This document shows positions 11,965-26,260 of a DNA stretch of 64,000 nucleotides, piece after piece; position 1 is the stretch's first letter; every line of letters begins with the position of its first letter. The position numbers were made by a program, and so were the translations under genes. This DNA comes from Thozetella sp. PMI_491 (taxonomy: Eukaryota > Ascomycota > Sordariomycetes > Chaetosphaeriales > Chaetosphaeriaceae), in contig MU270113.1 in assembly GCA_021432635.1 (NCBI GenBank), positions 1-64,000 of the forward strand, in the 5' to 3' direction. The notes under the pieces were generated by a model. That model saw only the letters and a program-made list of their open reading frames with translations, did no database searches and was not told where the DNA came from.

Positions 11965-14900
11965 ATGGACGACCTATTCGACGTTTTCGAGGAACAAACC
12001 CGGGCTCCCAAGCGCAAAGCGGAGACGTCCGACATACACATGACTGATGGCGCCAACGAGAACCACGATCATGTCCCATCCAACACCAATGACGAGGAGG
12101 CCCCTGTTGACGATGCCCTGCTAGACAGCCAAGGCGATAGCAAGCGCAGGAAAAAGGAGGAGGAGGCCGAACCTGTGTTGACCGACTCGTTCCAGACGGC
12201 CGAATCACGAGAAGTCAAAGGCGCCCAAGGCTTTGCAGCGGCCGAGGCCGAGTCCCTCGTACTACAGCACAACATCCAGCACCAAGTCGCGCTCCCCCCT
12301 GACCTCGACTACGAATACATCCCTCTCTCAGAGCACAAGGCACCTGCCGAGCCCGCGCGGTCGTATCCCTTCAAGCTTGACCCCTTCCAGAGCTTGGCCA
12401 TCGCTTCGATCGAGCGTGACGAGAGCGTGTTGGTGTCCGCCCACACCAGCGCTGGTAAAACGGTCGTCGCCGAGTACGCCATCGCCCAATGTCTCAAACA
12501 GAACCAGCGAGTCATCTACACCAGCCCTATCAAGGCGCTCAGCAACCAAAAATACCGAGATTTCCAAGGGGAATTTGGCGATGTCGGTCTTATGACGGGA
12601 GATGTCACCATCAATCCCACTGCGAGCTGCCTCGTCATGACGACCGAGATTCTGCGATCTATGCTGTATCGCGGCTCCGAAATCATGCGCGAGGTTGCCT
12701 GGGTCGTTTTCGACGAGATCCACTACATGCGCGATAAGACGCGCGGCGTGGTCTGGGAAGAGACAATTATCCTGCTCCCCGATAAAGTGCGCTATGTCTT
12801 TCTGTCGGCCACCATTCCGAATGCCTTCCAGTTCGCCGAATGGATCGCCAAGATCCACCGTCAGGCGTGCCACGTCGTCTATACGGACTTCCGTCCCACC
12901 CCTTTGCAGAACTACTTCTTCCCGGCTGGCGGCAAGGGCATCTTCTTGATTGTGGATGAGAAGGGCAACTTCAAGGAGCAGAACTTCAACACGGCCATGG
13001 ACTTGGTCGTCCAGAATGCCGGCGCCGAACCCAACGACCCCAATGCTAAGATGAAAGGCAGGGGCAAGAATAAAAAGATTGATAAGGGAGGAGTCAGCGA
13101 CTCAAAGTCTGACATCTCCAAGATCATTCGGATGATCATCAAGAAGAATTTCCAGCCTGTCATCGTTTTCAACTTCAGCAAGCGGGAAGTAGAGGCCCTG
13201 GCACTCAAGATATCCGACTCCAAGTTCAACTCGCCCGACCAGGAGGCCATGGTGAGGCATGTTTTTGACAATGCGCTCAAGTCCCTCTCGGATGAAGACA
13301 GGGGTCTCCCACAGATCCAAAACATCCTGCCACTCCTCATCAAAGGCGTCGGCGTTCACCACTCCGGCCTTCTTCCGATCCTCAAGGAAACCATTGAGAT
13401 TCTCTTCCAGGAGGGCCTCATCAAGGTCTTGTTCGCAACCGAGACCTTCTCCATCGGCCTGAACATGCCTGCAAGGACAGTTGTCTTCACCAACGTTAAG
13501 AAGTTCGATGGCGTCAAGCAACGCGCTATCACCTCCTCCGAGTACATCCAGATGGCCGGGCGCGCAGGTCGTCGAGGTCTCGATGACCGTGGTATTGTCA
13601 TCATGATGGTCAATGACAAGCTTGAGCCGGATGAAGCCAGAAGCATTGTTGTTGGCCAACAAGACCGACTCAACTCGGCCTTTTACCTAGGCTACAACAT
13701 GGTCTTAAATCTCCTCCGTATCGAGGCGGTGTCACCCGAGTTCATGCTGGAGCGCTGCTTCTTCCAGTTCCAGAATGCCGCTAGTGTCCCCCAGCTAGAG
13801 AAGGAGCTCGTCAGCCTCCAGCAAGAGCGCGACAGCATGGTCATTGTGGACGAAGCCACGGTAAAGGATTACTACAACATTCGCCAGCAGCTCGAGGGCT
13901 ATAAGAAAGATTTTATCTCGGTGACCCAGCATCCCAACTACTGCCTAGAATTTCTTCAGCCGGGCCGCCTCGTCGGTATCAAAAGCCCTACTACTGGGAC
14001 TGATTACGGATGGGGCGTCGTGACAAACTTCGTAGCCCGTAAGAAATCGAAGGCAGAGCCCGAATACCCCCCACAAGAGTCTTACTTCATCGACGTGCTG
14101 CTGAAGATCTCAGCCAACAGCAAGGATTTCGACGTCCAAAACAAAAGCTCTGAGCTGCCACCCGGTCTCGTGCCGAGCAGCAACAGCGACTCGAGATACG
14201 AAGTTGTCCCGTGTCTGCTCACCTGCATGGAGGCCTTGAGTCAGATTCGGGTCTTCATGCCCAAGCGCATAGACTCGCGGGAAGACAAGGACCAGGTCGG
14301 CAAACTTCTGGAGGAAGTGGCGCGCCGGTTCCCGGATGGCGTGCCCAAGCTTGACCCTCTCGAAAACATGGGCATTCAGGACGAGTCCTTCAAGGCCCTC
14401 ATGCGGAAGATCGAGGTCCTCGAGTCTCGCCTCATGTCTAACCCTCTCCATAACTCACCTCTGATGCCTGAGCTCTGGCAACAGTATTCGGTCAAGGTGG
14501 ACATTGGCGAGAAGATCAAAGAAAAAAAGAAGGCCATCGCCAAGGCACACAGCATCAGCCAGCTGGATGAGCTCAAGTCCCGTAAGCGAGTCCTTCGGAG
14601 ACTGGGGTTCATCAACGATAGTGAGGTCGTCCAGATGAAGGCCCGTGTTGCCTGTGAGATATCGGCGACCGAAGGCCACGAGTTGCTGCTTGCAGAGCTG
14701 CTGTTCAATCGTTTTTTTAACGAGCTGAACCCTGAGGTCTGCGCGGCTGTGCTGAGCTGCTTCATCTTTGACGAGAAGGTTGAGTCCACTGCGCCCCGAG
14801 AGGAGCTTGCTAAGCCTTTCCGTGAAATCAAGGCGCAAGCCAAGATTATTGCGAAGGTTAGCATGGAGAGCAAGCTTGAAATGAACGAAGAAGAATATCT

Positions 14901-15225
14901 CGCCAAGCTCAAGGGCGAGCTCATGGAGACAGTGTTCGCCTGGGCGGGCGGAAAGCCCTTCTCTGAAGTCTGGTACGACCCCTAGACATATCCCCTTTCC
15001 TCCGCCTCTACGCTCTGCTCCAGTTTCTAACCGACCATCTGCAGCAAAATGACCAATGCGTACGAGGGCTCCCTCATTCGCCTCTTCCGCCGCCTTGAGG
15101 AGCTTCTCCGCCAGATGGCCGAAGCCAGCAAGGTCATGGGCAGCGAAGATTTGCGCGAGAAGTTCGAGACTAGCCTGACCAAGGTCCGGCGCGACATCGT
15201 CTCGTTTAACTCCCTCTACCTCTGA
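11965..15225 (+). CDS. MTR4: Exosome/TRAMP RNA helicase Mtr4 (Ski2-like DExH)
   Basis: Two exons, 11965-14972 and 15045-15225, encode 1062 aa, close to yeast Mtr4 (1073). Start chosen at MDDLFDVFEEQ; an upstream in-frame Met belongs to the leader. Motif I SAHTSAGKT lies at about 159-166, the DEIH box at 250-253, SAT follows in FLSATIP, and motif VI is QMAGRAGRRGLD. The arch/KOW insertion is visible (PGRLVGIKSPTTGTDYGWGV), then the C-terminal helical domain. The first exon runs into a stop soon after the donor GTACGA; splicing to TGCAG at 15044 joins SEVC to KMTNAYEGSLIRLFRRLEEL, the conserved end of the protein. Mtr4 unwinds RNA 3'-5' and feeds it to the nuclear exosome in rRNA processing and decay. 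Confidence 0.96.
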
Positions 15226-15763: not shown

Positions 15764-16184
15764 TTACAGCTGTTTCTTCAGTCCCCCGACGGCCCCAAGG
15801 CCTTGCTTTACGTCCTCGGCCTGCTGGTTGCCCTTCAGTTGGGCTAGAACGGCCGACGATGGTTAGCATTCGCTGCACGTCGAATCCACTGTAAGGGTAA
15901 ATTGCGTAAGGCTACTCACAGCCGACAAAGTCTTCGCCCGACTTGAGCCCCTGGGCCTGGAGTTTCTTGGCCTCCGCCGCAGCTTTGGCCTTGAACATGT
16001 ACACACTACAAGGCTCCATTGTCAGCAGCTGGAAACTCGAGGTGTTTGGTGCGGCGAGGCCGGCGTACCCGATCTTCTCGATGATGGGGTCCAGGTAGCC
16101 CTGCTCGTAGGCAAAGTATGTTCCCGCGACGATGGCGAGGACAACGAGGAGGGACACGAGCACCGAAGAGGCTGTGGAGTCCAT
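15764..16184 (-). CDS. Small single-pass membrane protein, unknown function (93 aa)
   Basis: Three exons, 16184-16069, 16005-15920 and 15843-15764, encode 93 aa. Residues about 6-26 (SSVLVSLLVVLAIVAGTYFAY) form one transmembrane segment close to the N-terminus. It is followed by KIGVYMFKAKAAAEAKKLQAQGLK, an Ala/Lys-rich amphipathic helix, and a Gly/Gln-rich end GAVGGLKKQL. All three junctions keep the frame with good donors (GTACGC, GTGAGT) and TAG acceptors, which argues for a real gene. The short exposed N-terminus suggests a tail on one face of an organelle membrane, possibly the ER or mitochondrial outer membrane, but nothing in the sequence decides which. I do not recognise a named family. 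Confidence 0.75.
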
Positions 16185-17119
16185 GGTAATTATTTGTGTA
16201 TGATCGTGTTGGGTGGGGGGGGAGCTACAGGGAGGCAGGTGTGCACGCGACGGCAGGGGAGACTAGCCAAAAGTAGGTCAATTCAGTTTGGGTGTCGGTG
16301 AAGGGTGAAAAGAGCTGTCTATCCCTCTCACCGCTATCTCTCTCTCTTTATACTCTCCTCTCTTGCTCAATTCCGGCTTTTCTGGTGTTGAGGCTCCCGA
16401 TGCTGTGCCATGACGTGAGTGCTCCGCCGTCTGCGCGGGCGCATCGACGGACTCGCCACCGATAACCAAGTTTTCCGGCAAGTTTAGCCATGTTGCGCAA
16501 ACACCAACTACGCCCACCAACCGGGTGACACGAATGCCAATGTCATGGACCAGCAGCCTACACCAGGCAAAATTGCTAGAAATTGAGATATGATGTTATG
16601 CTTTGGCCTCCTGTCGAGCATCTTTGGCTGTTGGCGTTAATTACCCTAGCATGGACCGTCTAGCCGGCCCTGAGGGCCTCACTTTTTGCTCACCAATTTT
16701 TTGGGGGGGAACAAGGCTGCATGTGAAACATGCCTCTACCCTGCAGCACAACTTTTCAGGAGGGAGGAGATCTGCTTCATTAGGCCGGTGCGGCCTACTT
16801 ACCTAACTTATAGTCGTATATATAATGCCACTTACTTCGTTATGGGTTGGACAATTTATAGTAATTTTTGACGCTAATTTCTTCAAATTTAGGTGCATCC
16901 GAGGTGGATGGATGGTATAGGGCTATGCTGACGCGCTTTATTTTACATAAAAAAGAGAGGAAAAGGGAAAGAAAGGGAATGCTATAAAGTAAGCCAGCTG
17001 TTCTCCCACAGAAGAGCGATTTGGTGGATAAGAATTAGATTTTATGACAAAAAGGAAGCCTGATCTCTCTCTTTTTTATAACCCGTGTGGCCAAGGGTGG
17101 CTCTGGAGACATAAGTAGA
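16185..17119. repeat. AT-rich gene-free block, probable decayed repeat
   Basis: The first 300 bp should be the promoter of the small membrane protein (CT-rich on the plus strand at 16320-16370). From about 16560 to 17110 the composition turns AT- and TpA-rich (for example TATAGTCGTATATATAATGC), unlike the GC-rich neighbours. No coding frame survives. It looks like a short remnant of repeat DNA after C-to-T decay, but the source element cannot be named. Confidence 0.4.
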
Positions 17120-19740
17120 CTATTGATCTCGAGAGTCTGGCTGGTCTGAGCTATTGTTGAACAATAGTATCGAGTTTTTATCATGGAAGGAAGGCGCCGA
17201 TGGATCCATATAACCGGAATATGGAATAGTGTTCAAGTCTGTCGGATATCCAAAGTTCATGCTGCCATGTTGCTGCTGTTCGAGAACTGGCAGCGCCATC
17301 TCAAAAAGCGATGGATCGAAGTCGAAACCTTCAATTGCCAGCCCGCTGTCCATACCTTCGGCGTGGACCGGACCATTGGGTATCAAAAAGGGCGTAGAAC
17401 CCTCGTGTTGTGAATAAGAGGTGCTGGGGGGTATGGCGGGATACTGGGGCTGTTCTATAGTCGTTTTGCGAGGTTCCTCTGATCCTCGGGATTGCTCGCT
17501 AGGGGTAAGGGGCTGCTTTCCCTTGCTCATGTGGTTTCCTTGATACGAACGAAACACTTCTATCTGTGCATCCCGGACGATGCCCACAAACTGGGCCCGG
17601 AGTGCGTCTTCTAGTGGCCCGGCGATACCAAGCACTTCTTCCTCAAGTCGTTTCCTAACGAGGCGCAGAAGCTCCCGCCTCTGTACCCTTTCGTACTGTA
17701 CCACAGCATCTTGCGGCGATGAGCTACCACTATCATAGTCTGTAGGGGGTAGGGATTAGTGGAAGACAATTAGCGAGCAGTTTCAAATGGATGGCTTACA
17801 CGGCGAGGGTATCAAGTCGCCGTCCTCATCCGGGAATATAATCTTGTATATCTCAAACCACTTCTCCTCTTCCGAAGCGCCCCTAAGCCTCTTCCTGAGT
17901 GCCTTTTCCTGGTTGTCATCGATCCCTTCGGGCAGGTTTACTAGTTGCACTTCACAAGCAATAGCTTGTCGCTGATGGGCGATGAGGTCTGCGTTTGTGG
18001 ACATGACGGATCCGCAACGGTTGCAATGGATCGGTAGCTTGTGGTTTCGATAAAGATGCTCTCTGTTGTTTCATTAATTAGTACCCCGCATAGCATTAAC
18101 GTAGAAGGACTGGGAGTATTACTTGACTCGGTGGGTCGACTCCCACCCCGGCCCGCCGCACGATCGGAGCTTCAGGTGCTTCTTGGTATTGTGCTTGAAA
18201 AATGGACAGGCTAGCCTTCGGACGCCTATGCCATTGCCCTGTGCGCCTTGCCTAGGCCTCTTAGACTCTCCCTCTCTACCTGTCTCGTCAGTCGAGTTGG
18301 AGTCGATGCTGTCTTCCCTGTTACGCTTTGTGCTACGGCTCAGCTCTCCAGAAGAAGAGGCGGATGACATCCCTCTTTGGGAGCGAGTGTCAGAGGGGGA
18401 GCCCGCCCCGGCTCTGACGCTTACACCGCTGAGGCACCCGTGGTGGTTCAGCATCGACCGGAATTCAGCCATGAGCGTATCCACCGCGCGGCGTTTGGAC
18501 AATTCAAGACTAAGGGGGATAATGGCCGAATCGGAAGACTCGCCGACAGACAACGAGCCAGCGGACCCTAAGGTCGCTCGATCGAACTCTGAATCGGCGA
18601 GCTCGCTCGAAGTAGCAGTCGACTCGGAAGCCTATATCAGGGAGTTAGGTGGGATCTCAACAACCGACAGTGCAGAGGCAGACTTACATTCATCAGTGAT
18701 ATTGAATCTGGAGATTTACGGACGTCCGCCGTTTTCTCGGCCCCCTGGCCAGCCGAGCCATCGGACCCATGTATAGATTCGTCGCTCTCGGCCACCATGT
18801 CTAGCCGCGGCCGTCTCGTGAGAGAATTCTGCCTGGATAGGGCTTCGTTCTTGTTTTCAGCGCTGGGGGCAGATGTCTCTGCTTGCTGTCGAAGTTGTGG
18901 TGCCGGTGCCAGGCCTGGCTGGATGCTTAACTGTCGTTGTGTCTCGGTCGGGGGGACAGGTAGCGGCGGTGCACTTATACTTTCGGGTGGCCGGCCCGGT
19001 AGGCTGTGTATCTCGATTGGCAAACCGATATTCTCCTCCTCACATTCTAAGATTGTGTGCTGCCAGGCAGGGACCTCGGTCCCCATGCTGGGCAGACCGT
19101 AAGATAGGGTAACCTGTGAGCCTGAATTGGAATAGTATCGCGCGCCGGCGACAGAGGTATCTCGGCTGCTATTGCTAGCAGAAGACATCATCAGCGGATC
19201 TAGGCTTCTAGTGTCGGCCTCGGACATGGGAAGAGGTGCCTTGTCGCGCTCCTTGTATGTCGTCTGTACCATTGGGCCTGGAGGCTTGGTGCGCCCCCTG
19301 CTGGGGACGTCTCGCGCAGCAGGGACGCAGTTGCGGCATTTCTGGCGCCTTGCAAATAGCCATGCCACTACCAGCACGATAAGCAATGACCCTACCGCTC
19401 CGGCGACGATGCCGCCGATCTGGCGGGGACTCAGGCCGCTGGTGGCCGGCTGGGTGGGCAGAGAGGATTCGGAGGAAGCGGCGTCAGCTTGGGACAAGGC
19501 TGTCTGGGAGGCGGCGACCGGAGGAACGGCCTGGAATGTAGTGGCCGGCGCAACGGAAGACCCTATGCCGGTGGGCATCTGCGTCGTGGTAATTGTATGG
19601 CCGTTTTCCGTCAGCGTGAGGACGGTTTGGTGGCCACCATCGTAAGGCACTATCAACGCTGCAGCCTGGCCTTCACACAGCAGCAGGAGCGCCAGGAGTA
19701 GCATGCCAATGCGCTCTGGCCATGACTGCGAGGTACGCAT
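17120..19740 (-). CDS. Predicted membrane-anchored C2H2 zinc-finger protein (814 aa)
   Basis: Four exons: 19740-18688, 18631-18123, 18062-17800 and 17739-17120. Exon 1 gives a signal peptide (residues 1 to about 27, MLLLALLLLCEGQAAA), a short Ser/Thr-rich lumenal part, and a transmembrane segment at about 108-130 (IGGIVAGAVGSLLIVLVVAW) followed by the basic stop-transfer ARRQKCRNC. A long disordered cytoplasmic part follows. Exon 2 enters with no Met and continues into SKRRAVDTLMAEFRSML, two basic NLS-like clusters (TKRNRED, SKRPRQ) and a fungal C2H2 family domain: CPFFKHN from about residue 493, then GWESTHRVKEHLYRNHKLP, IHCNRCGS and LIAHQRQ. That family is normally soluble. The exon 1/2 intron has GTAAGT, CTAAC and TAG signals. 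The alternative is two separate genes, but the second would lack a start and a promoter. Confidence 0.72.
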
Positions 19741-21518: not shown

Positions 21519-23750
21519 ATGGCTGGAAACGTTCAAATCACTGGCGTCCCAAATAAACCTAACCCTGATGGTACGCTGCTTGCTTACCTCCCTTGCCATT
21601 ATATGATCAGTCTCCGTAACTTGTCTTGCTAGGGTCCTTTCCCCTGCGGCGAGAGATTCGCGACCTTCAGAAAAATTTCCCGGATCAGTTCAATCTGTAT
21701 ATTCTTGGCCTCAGACTCCTGCAAGGAGTCAGTGAGGATGAGTTGACATCTTACTACCAGATCGCTGGGATCCATGGCATGCCATTCAAGCCATGGGACA
21801 ATGTCCAAGGCAACACCGACTGGTCTACTGACCCGCAAGGGTTTGGTGGATACTGCACCCACTCGTCCATTCTGTTCACTACCTGGCATCGCCCTTATCT
21901 GGCCCTATTCGAGGTGACACCCTTTCGCCCCCTCCTTGCCGAGTCTACTTGGATGATGAACCAACCAGAGCCATATAGCAATCCCTTTACGCTGCCGTTC
22001 AAGCTGCCGTTCAGCAGTTCCCTGAATCCCTAAGGGGTCGATATGAAGAAGCAGCTCAGGACTTCCGCATGCCATATTTCGACTGGGCCATCATCCCTCC
22101 CACGGGCAGCAGCGGTTTCCCAGCCGCTATCAGCTCGGCCAAGATCTCAGTGGTAGACATAGACGGCAAGTCAAAGTCCATCGACAACCCCCTCTACCAG
22201 TACACCTTCAACCCGCTGAACCCGCAGCCGCAAGACTTTGACGATCAGGTAAGCCGATAGCACCACGCCGAGAGTTTAAACCTGGCTTCTCTCTCCCTGA
22301 GAATATGAACATTTCTGAGCATCTCGATACCAGTGGAGTCAGTACCCGACTACCGTACGCTATCCAGACCAAAACGGTAACTCGCACGACTCACAAATCA
22401 CGTCTATCCTTAACAACGAGAACGGATCCCTGCGCAACAACGTTTCGATCCTCCTGCTTTCCTACCACCAATTCGATGGCTTCAGCTCCAACCAGTGGAA
22501 CAATGAGACTAGTCCTGGAGCGTACGGGAGCTTAGAAGACATTCACAATGAGATCCATGACAAGACTGGCGGCCCCGGTGGCCACATGTCTGCGTTGGAG
22601 GTGTCGGCATTTGATCCTATCTTTTGGCTCCATCATACGTGAGTCCCCTTCAAGAGTCATCTGGGCCAAAGATAATGGGTTTTTAAACGCAAATTTCGTA
22701 GTAATGTGGATCGTCTCTGGGCTATCTGGCAAGGCCTCAACCCCGATGCCTTCATCACGCCTCAACCTGCGCCATACCCTACGTTTTGGGCCGAGAGAGG
22801 CGACAGCCAGACGGCAGACTCGCCCTTAGTACCGTTTTGGGACCAGACGGGCAGCAGTTTTTGGACCTCGAACCAGGTCAAGGACAGCAGCATTTTCGGA
22901 TATGCCTATCCGGAGACGCAAAAATGGAAATATGCCAACACTGACGACTACCAGACCTCGATCCGCCAAGCCGTCGTCAGGCTGTATGGTGGTAACGTGT
23001 TTAGTAATTTCATACAGACTATCGCTTCCCAGATGCATCCAGCTGGCGTTGAGGGCAATGCTGGGTTGGCCGCCCCGGCTGGAAAGCAGCTTCAACAGCC
23101 TCTAAAGGGTGAGGAAAACGGGAAAGCCGTGCAAAGCTCCGGTAGCATCGAAGGCAAGTCATAGCTTCGGATGACACCACAAATCGGGATCCTAACTCCT
23201 CGCAGGCCCTATACCCGCGGCCCTAGCGCACCTAGCGCCGAACAACAAGTACAGCGAATGGATCGTCAATGTGCGTGCTCTCAAGCACGGTCTTGGACAA
23301 TCCTTCCGCATCCTTGTCTTCCTGGGCGATTTTAGCCCCGACTCGTCGACCTGGAACTCAGAGCCCAACTGCGTCGGCCGCGTGTCAATCCTCGGCCGCA
23401 GCCCGGCGACCGCGTGCGGAAAGTGCCAGCATGATCGAAATACCAATCTCGTTGTGTCCGGTACTGTTCCACTCACCTCAGCGCTTCTGCAGGATATCGT
23501 CGAGGGGCGGCTGCGGAGCTTAGAGCCAGCCGATGTGGTCCCCTACCTCCGGGAGAACCTCACGGTAAAAGCTACATTGTTTTCGGGACAGGAGAGAGCT
23601 GTGGATGAGATTCCAGGTCTGAAGGTGAGCGTATGTTCGACAGAAGTCGAGATTGGGGTGGATGGGCTCCCGGTGTACTCGGGGACTTACATCAAGTATC
23701 CTGAGATCACCAACGCCTTCCCGGGCGTTGTTGGGAGGGAAGATGCTTAG
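21519..23750 (+). CDS. Tyrosinase (type-3 copper polyphenol oxidase)
   Basis: Six exons: 21519-21570, 21633-21913, 21979-22248, 22334-22638, 22702-23153 and 23206-23750, about 634 aa. CuA ligands: His in IAGIHGMPFKPW, His of YCTHSS (its Cys is the usual thioether partner) and His in TTWHRPYLALFE. CuB ligands: HNEIH and FWLHHTNVDRLW. It oxidises monophenols and o-diphenols to quinones, the entry to melanin. No signal peptide is visible, so it is probably cytosolic, like other fungal tyrosinases. The C-terminal part (from about 450) matches the cap that is removed when the proenzyme matures. The last intron appears to use a GC donor (AAG|GCAAGT); an in-frame GT donor 9 nt upstream is possible but weaker. 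Confidence 0.93.
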
Positions 23751-24260: not shown

Positions 24261-26260
24261 TTAAACCAGAGAGAACTTCCTTATATCTTTTTCGTCATCT
24301 AATCTTTTTGTGACCCTTCTTTTTGACGAGCGGTCGTCAAGAATACGACAGTTCCCCAGATACTCGAAATAGGGCCCCGCCGGGCGCAAGAGACATAGGC
24401 TTTGTGACCCCTCGAGTACACATACTAGGTCATCGGGCAAAATCTTGACACTGTCTCGTCTATAACAGCGTATGATGCGGCCGTCTTCGATAATTGTAAA
24501 AGCAGCCCTTAGATAGACAGCAAGGCGGTACTCTTCTGCGTGAGCTTCACGTGTAAGTATGCTTAACTCCAGAGACGACCGTGCGGGAACAGAGCGTTGT
24601 TGCATTCGGTTCCAGAGTTGGCGGTCATGCCGCCCATATCGCAAGAACTCATCCTCAACAACAGATATGTTGACGCCTTTGATCGCGGAGGCGTGCCGAA
24701 GAAGCTCGTCTTGGACAAGCTGAAGTCTGCATGCCAAAGCCTCAGGGATAGCAACATCGGAGGGTAGCCCCTCGGGCCCTAGAGATATGGACTTCACGCA
24801 GCGGCCAATAATATACCCCCGGACATTCATGATTTGTAGATCGTCGGAGATGAAGACACGAGGAGTGTTTGACAACGGTGAGTTGTGCGAGGGGCCAAAG
24901 CTAGGAGCCCATAAGTGTCGAAAGTCAGGTACCCATGTGGGCACACCCGTGAGTTCGTTTCTCCGGCAATTGAGAAGCTCCAAATTCCCAGTCTTCTCTA
25001 GAAGAAAGGCCGCGTACCTATGGTATATGACTTCGTAGGTTACGCGATAATCTGGGTCAAGATGTCTGGGTAGATCACCAGCAACTCTGCTCAGAGCCAG
25101 TAGGCCGTAGATTTGGTCCCGAGGATCGGTCGATCTTGAGCCACCGACACGGATCAGAAGCGAGGCGAGAAGTGCGGCAGGACTTTCATTGATGCCTCGT
25201 AGGGTCAAAGTTTTGCTTCCGTCCTCTCTTGTGGCGATTGTAAAAGAATTTCGTATCCGACGAAGCCTTTCAACTTTGCTCCCACTTTGGCCCACGATAC
25301 TCTTCACTACAGGGGTGTTCTCTCCTATCAAGAGGCCGTAGAGGCGTCCTAGATTCGCCAACCGCGTCTGATGTCTCCCAGAAAATAGAACTGGATCCTT
25401 CGAACTAGCGACAACCTCCTGAACAACCCAGGTCCTCCTAAACCATGGACGATCGCTACAAAATTTATAAAAAGTTGCGATGATCTGAGAAATATGTGGC
25501 CCAAGAGGAAATTTTGATGACTGGGAATGGATCTTCAGTAGTTTTCTTTTTTCCCTCATCCAACCTCCTAGAGCTCGTGATTTCTCAAACAGTCCCTCAA
25601 TCTCTTTGTCTTCCTGATCCGAGACATTTGGCCCCAGCCAGACGATGGTACATACGGCGGATGAGTAAATCTCAGACATGCGTGCAACTTCGACTGATCT
25701 CTCGTCTATATCGTCCTGGTTGATACAGATTGCGTCGATCCATAGGGCACCCCTAAATGCAGATTCGGTATCTTGAAGCTCTCGAAACTGCAGCAATGCC
25801 TCATGTAAATTCTTCCTTACGCGGAATGTCCGGCTGTTTAAAAGATCTCTTCTGTCTCTTGTCCTTCGCCCCAGTAATATGATAAGGCGTGAAACACGGG
25901 TCTAGAGCTCAAAGCCACCTGTTCCAATATGCAGGCGAGGGGCTTATCCTTGTGTCCCGGCAGAATTTTAAGCAAACGGATGTCGGAATTGAGGAGCTCG
26001 CGATATGGATAGGAAACAGTGCTATTCCTCTTTGAAACATCCGTGGGCACCGGCAGTGGTTGTGCAACTGGTGTAGATTGGCATTGGTCTGTTGTACTCG
26101 AAGATAACTGCCGTCGTCTAAAGAGGGGAGACAATTGCACGATATAAGGAGTATGGTGAATATGCGAATTGTCACGGCAAAAGGGCGCCTTTGGTCGATG
26201 CAGAAGAAGGAATGGCGTACCTCTAAGCTGAAGTCGGTTAAGGATTTCGTGTCTGGTCAT
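24261..26260 (-). CDS. HET-domain (heterokaryon incompatibility) protein, frame interrupted
   Basis: The N-terminal part (26260 to about 25838) ends in VFHALSYYWGEGQETEEI, the first HET motif (ALSYxWG). The rest (from about 25840 to 24261) carries LNSRTFRVRKNLHEALLQ, then ALWIDAICINQDDIDERSVEVARMSEIYSSA and CTIVWLG, the core HET motifs in order. The C-terminal part is about 400 aa of the usual HET-protein tail (DPDYRVTYEVIYHRYAAFLLE, GVPTWVPDF). The two parts lie in different reading frames at a T-run and no GT-AG intron can bridge them without losing the motif, so this is either a young pseudogene or a base error in the assembly. HET proteins trigger compartment death after fusion of unlike strains. 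Codon use is more AT-rich than in neighbours, as is usual for this fast-evolving family. Confidence 0.75.

Follow-up and report, generated by a model that had tools for sequence, protein, structure and literature searches.

A fungal gene predicted to join a type I membrane anchor to a C2H2-type zinc-finger domain: a candidate membrane-tethered regulator

A minus-strand gene of Thozetella sp. PMI_491 appears to encode, in a single spliced reading frame, both a secretory membrane protein and a zinc-finger domain. One fused, membrane-tethered C2H2 regulator that is released by proteolysis is the best single explanation we can offer for this arrangement, and we favour it tentatively, stopping just short of calling it probable. 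The gene lies within a 64,000-nt stretch of contig MU270113.1, referred to here as the window. Transcription factors anchored in membranes are already known, and the combination of a signal-peptide-bearing type I anchor with a C2H2 domain would be a new form of them. If the proposal is true, an extracellular domain would be linked to transcription without a kinase cascade; if the halves are instead made separately, the locus is a warning that gene models in compact fungal genomes may be wrongly fused.

Results and discussion

The original prediction of a two-part product of 814 residues was confirmed by an independent rebuilding of the gene model. Splicing out three introns (Table 1) gave a four-exon gene of exactly 814 residues on the minus strand, from an ATG at 19740 to a stop codon ending at 17120. 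From the N- to the C-terminus, the product comprises a signal peptide, an S/T/P-rich ectodomain, a transmembrane (TM) helix, a disordered linker, zinc fingers, a helical stretch and an acidic tail. The frame of exon 1 is open over 351 codons, with 16 and 8 stops in the other two minus-strand frames, and short consensus introns are typical of the whole window of fungal DNA.

Table 1 Features of the predicted gene (window positions)
Feature	Coordinates	Strand	Basis
Exon 1 (codons 1–351): signal peptide, ectodomain, TM helix, disordered cytoplasmic linker	18688..19740	-	open ORF
Predicted signal peptide, residues 1–28, h-region MLLLALLLL	19657..19740	-	hydropathy, -3/-1 rule
Predicted TM helix, residues 107–130, small-residue motif GGIVAGAVG	19351..19422	-	hydropathy
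Intron 1, 56 nt, phase 0, GTAAGT...CTAAC...ATATAG	18632..18687	-	
Exon 2: Ser/acidic disordered stretch, amphipathic helix SLELSKRRAVDTLMAEFRSML, KRNR and KRPR, start of zinc finger 1	18123..18631	-	
Zinc-finger region C493–C557, interrupted by intron 2	17954..18208	-	Cys/His positions, PDB C2H2 matches
Intron 2, 60 nt, GTAATA...ACTAAT...CAG; removal restores THRVK|EHLYR	18063..18122	-	
Exon 3: end of finger 1, finger 2, EEEKW..IYKIIFPDEDGDLIPSP block	17800..18062	-	
Intron 3, 60 nt, GTAAGC...CTAAT...CAG	17740..17799	-	
Exon 4: helical RRELLRLVRKRLEEEV...LRAQFVGIVRDAQIEVFRSY, then acidic C-terminal tail, stop	17120..17739	-	
Acidic, aromatic/leucine-rich stretch, residues 733–765, including GFDFDPSLFEMALPVL	17270..17368	-	
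AATAAA, the sole one found; TATGTA upstream at 16949	16937..16942	-	

The short intron that had been predicted to join the two halves in frame was borne out, in phase 0 and with consensus signals. Its GTAAGT at 18687 is the sole good donor in exon 1, and CTAAC and TAG follow at normal distances. Between positions 16836 and 34375 of the minus strand, intron 1 was the only candidate with the strict GTAAGT-branch-AG pattern, which was seen four times on the whole minus strand against about 1.2 expected by chance. As chance yields it about once per strand, the pattern is weak on its own, and the weight therefore rests on position and frame. More specifically, in the frame of exon 2 an in-frame stop ends exactly at the intron 1 acceptor, and the first ATG (codon 405) comes only within what is probably the first helix of the finger half; this half thus requires an upstream exon, namely exon 1. 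The linker-composition scores flanking the intron were 0.16 and 0.18, with 95% of null 38-mers scoring below 0.09, while the intron read-through scored -0.41 and was unlike the linker. No canonical poly(A) signal was found between the halves, AATAAA being absent there, and the sole poly(A)-like hexamer in 17900–18760 is a weak AATGAA within intron 2 (18075). AATAAA was found only after the final stop, at a distance of 178 bp, and together with the lack of a canonical signal between the halves this favours one gene. Based on the frame, the splice signals, the matching low-complexity flanks and the fact that neither an alternative start of the finger half in exon 2 nor a canonical poly(A) signal between the halves was found, we consider it well supported that a single gene encodes both halves.

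Retention of intron 1 is the starting point of the main rival to a fused regulator, which we regard as possible but on the unlikely side. Here one locus would give two products, a 367-residue membrane protein from upstream-promoter transcripts that keep intron 1 and a soluble zinc-finger protein from transcripts with an internal start, and the fused form would be minor or absent. Read-through into the intron (VSLPLHCRLLRSHLTP) meets a TGA after 16 codons (18637-18639) and would yield just such a 367-residue membrane protein without the finger. Two in-frame ATG codons are possible starts of a soluble isoform, namely codon 315 (18796-18798, minus strand), in the context GACATGG, and codon 350 (18691..18693, minus strand), two codons before the intron 1 donor. 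In Magnaporthe oryzae, intron retention is the commonest type of alternative splicing and isoform-switching genes are enriched in C2H2 factors (PMC8942408). Against this reading, the stretch from the intron 1 stop to intron 2 contains none of the usual poly(A) signals, neither ATG has a TATA-like site within 150 bp, and the 16 residues read from the intron are unlike the linker. Moreover, it would be a coincidence for two overlapping genes to keep a common frame across a phase-0 intron. Membrane and soluble products could also coexist with the fusion.

Codon usage was tried as a test for two origins and was set aside. Synonymous usage was slightly unfavourable over codons 314–347, at -0.12 against +0.06 over codons 1–313, which would count against the fused regulator but means little with so few codons. 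A change point was placed at codon 520 (p=0.023), away from the junction, and an ordinary gene of the window gave a stronger one; for these two reasons it is given no weight. The same change point is what could be cited for the joined frame being a by-product, whether of a recent fusion, a degenerate pair of neighbours or a misassembly, and for no working fusion protein being made. We think this quite unlikely, as the three introns, the finger ligands and the downstream helices are all intact, and the 814 codons contain no frameshift or stop. No second copy of either half was found within the window.

The signal peptide, short lumenal part and single TM span that had been read into exon 1 were supported by two hydrophobic peaks, at residues 11–33 and 106–132. 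In 20,000 shuffles of the exon 1 residues, the N-terminal hydrophobicity was reached twice, that of the TM segment twice and both together never; the described structure exceeds chance. Cleavage of the signal peptide is allowed after residue 26 or 28 by the -3/-1 rule. The ectodomain that would follow (residues 29–106) has 78 residues, is S/T/P-rich with one basic residue, and is predicted to be prone to O-glycosylation. In the 30 residues after the TM helix (131–160) there are eight K/R, against one in the whole ectodomain, and this strong positive-inside bias predicts a type I topology with a cytosolic C-terminus and some 680 residues in the cytosol. From these features of the sequence we infer that the protein resides in a membrane. 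The long disordered linker expected between the TM helix and the fingers is present, and its length, put at about 350 residues in the original prediction, is corrected to about 362.

The second half carries two zinc-finger-like units. Finger 1 has the ligands C493, C509, H523 and H528 (C-x15-C-x13-H-x4-H), with an atypical, long Cys-Cys spacing, and finger 2 has C534, C537, H550 and C557 (C-x2-C-x12-H-x6-C), and is thus of C2HC type. A phmmer search against the PDB matched classical C2H2 chains (best E 5.6e-6, domain residues 19–64) and gave no solved relative beyond these generic matches. No Pfam model passed its cut-off, the best being zf-C2HE (E 0.31, 11.9 bits against a gathering score of 30.1), and membership of the C2H2 superfamily is therefore based on the ligand spacing and the PDB matches only. 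The zinc-finger nature of the domain thus stood, while a standard C2H2 pair did not, given the x15 spacing and the C2HC finger. An AlphaFold model of exon 3 alone had a mean pLDDT of 58, which is insufficient for searching by fold, and showed at this low confidence a strand-turn-helix at finger 2. The domain resembles a fungal C2H2 family, presumably one without a Pfam model, that has GPGW..HRVKEHLYR.H..PI.C.RC and IPSPYY(D/E) blocks; the finger spacing, the downstream EEKW/IPSPYYD block and the FRSY helix are presumably typical of it. Known members of this family are soluble, and the signal peptide and TM helix placed in front are the unusual part of the protein described here. Identity to two consensus probes of the family was 57% and 52%, figures that are not evidence of conservation, the probes having served as search bait only. 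Neither the window domain nor these probes found relatives in viral and prokaryote contigs.

The two basic NLS-like clusters of the original prediction were located just before the fingers, at KRNR (453–456) and KRPR (475–478), and we infer that the finger domain binds DNA. Beyond the helical stretch, the last 114 residues (701–814; 17120-17463) contain 15 acidic and two basic residues and 10% aromatics. Within this tail, residues 733–765 are the most acidic-and-hydrophobic stretch and the top-scoring one in the whole protein. The acidic, aromatic-rich tail, which the original prediction did not mention, resembles an activation domain. With a domain of DNA-binding type, the NLS-like clusters and this activation-like tail all on one half, the finger half is suggested to be a full transcription factor. 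The basic clusters and the tail fit a nuclear role, and they count against a reading in which the fusion is real and stays membrane-bound as a surface sensor, its fingers forming a cytosolic module that binds protein or RNA rather than DNA. The non-standard finger spacing, the failure of any Pfam model to pass and the lack of a solved relative beyond generic C2H2 matches would agree with such a module, which we nevertheless judge improbable.

In the scheme that we propose for the fused regulator, one gene would give a spliced mRNA for a type I membrane protein, directed into the ER by its signal peptide. The short, O-glycosylation-prone ectodomain would face the lumen or the cell exterior, and the zinc-finger half would be held in the cytosol on its long disordered linker. 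No cleavage motif was found in the protein; rhomboid-type substrates are often rich in small residues within the TM helix, as is the GGIVAGAVG start here. The trigger may be stress on the wall or membrane, or the state of the lipids, and the cut would fall in or beside this helix; the likeliest enzyme is a rhomboid or a protease of the signal-peptide-peptidase type, as on fungal SREBP. The freed fragment would then enter the nucleus by means of its basic clusters, where the fingers would bind DNA and the acidic tail would activate. The original suggestion is supported in part, by the evidence for a single gene (frame, splice signals); the topology, basic clusters and acidic tail agree with a dormant factor freed by cleavage, while release from the membrane is proposed. 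A related possibility, to which we give a rather low probability, is a single-pass surface sensor whose tail is a zinc-finger factor cut loose on stimulation, so that one protein alone would carry a signal from cell wall to nucleus, with retention of intron 1 giving a sensor-only form.

Comparison with known systems

On the spliced model from the ATG at 19740, the product combines a DNA-binding-type domain with a TM helix and places the domain on the cytosolic side, as in a membrane-bound transcription factor. Release of fungal SREBP involves the Dsc complex, the rhomboid Rbd2/RbdB and SppA; rhomboid and SppA cut within TM helices, and in Aspergillus RbdB and SppA are required for SREBP cleavage (PMC4863583). 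The protein described here would resemble SREBP/Sre1/SrbA, the membrane-bound bHLH factors of fungi and animals, in having a soluble regulator half anchored in the cytosol and, as proposed, released by proteolysis (PMC4863583). SREBP, however, has an N-terminal bHLH domain and a two-TM hairpin and lacks a signal peptide, whereas here there is a signal peptide, a single type I TM helix and a C-terminal finger. With no bHLH Pfam match and one internal TM helix besides the signal peptide, the protein was not assigned to the SREBP family.

A 2026 survey of membrane-bound regulators describes a candidate fungal NDT80-domain family, and these candidates share with MYRF and with the present protein the combination of a DNA-binding-type domain with a TM helix (PMC13294678). 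NDT80 candidates and MYRF carry an NDT80/PhoG domain, in place of which the present protein has a zinc finger, and MYRF is freed by its ICA autoprotease domain (PMC13294678), nothing of which was seen here. Assignment to this group was rejected, as no Pfam NDT80/PhoG match was obtained. Few fungal membrane-bound factors are known, namely SREBP, Mga2/Spt23 and the predicted NDT80 proteins of the survey, and in the passages of it considered here no C2H2 protein that has a signal peptide is mentioned (PMC13294678). The literature searched gave no C2H2 protein of fungi that is anchored by a TM helix, and a published precedent is possible, most subscription papers lying outside that search.

Mga2 and Spt23 are ER-bound fungal transcription factors that are freed from the membrane; they have IPT/TIG and ankyrin domains and a C-terminal tail anchor, and are released by the proteasome. 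Membrane release, as proposed here, is the point of likeness, whereas their domains, tail anchor and proteasome route differ from those of the present protein. Mid2-type fungal single-pass sensors have a signal peptide, a short S/T-rich stalk, one TM helix that begins with small residues and a basic juxtamembrane tail. The anchor had been predicted to be Mid2-like, and this general layout is indeed common to both, but the protein was not placed among the Mid2 proteins, as no Pfam Mid2-type match was obtained at E<=1. We know of no Mid2-type sensor whose cytoplasmic tail includes a zinc finger.

Genomic context

Several neighbouring genes in the window could be assigned. A tyrosinase gene (21620-22260, plus strand) is divergent from the gene described here, with about 1.8 kb between the two and no obvious gene in that interval. 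A HET-domain (heterokaryon incompatibility) gene occupies 24261-25901 on the minus strand, and its synonymous codon usage (-0.16) is clearly set apart from that of the window's remaining long genes (+0.09 to +0.23). An Mtr4/FRH-type helicase is encoded at 11968-14985, its best PDB match being Neurospora crassa FRH (1688 bits, against 1155 for yeast Dob1), which points to a Sordariomycete or a near relative as the likely source of the DNA. Lastly, a small minus-strand ORF lies downstream at 15912-16262; it has an N-terminal hydrophobic segment (MDSTASSVLVSLLVVLAIVAGTYFAYEQGYLDP) and probably encodes a small membrane protein.
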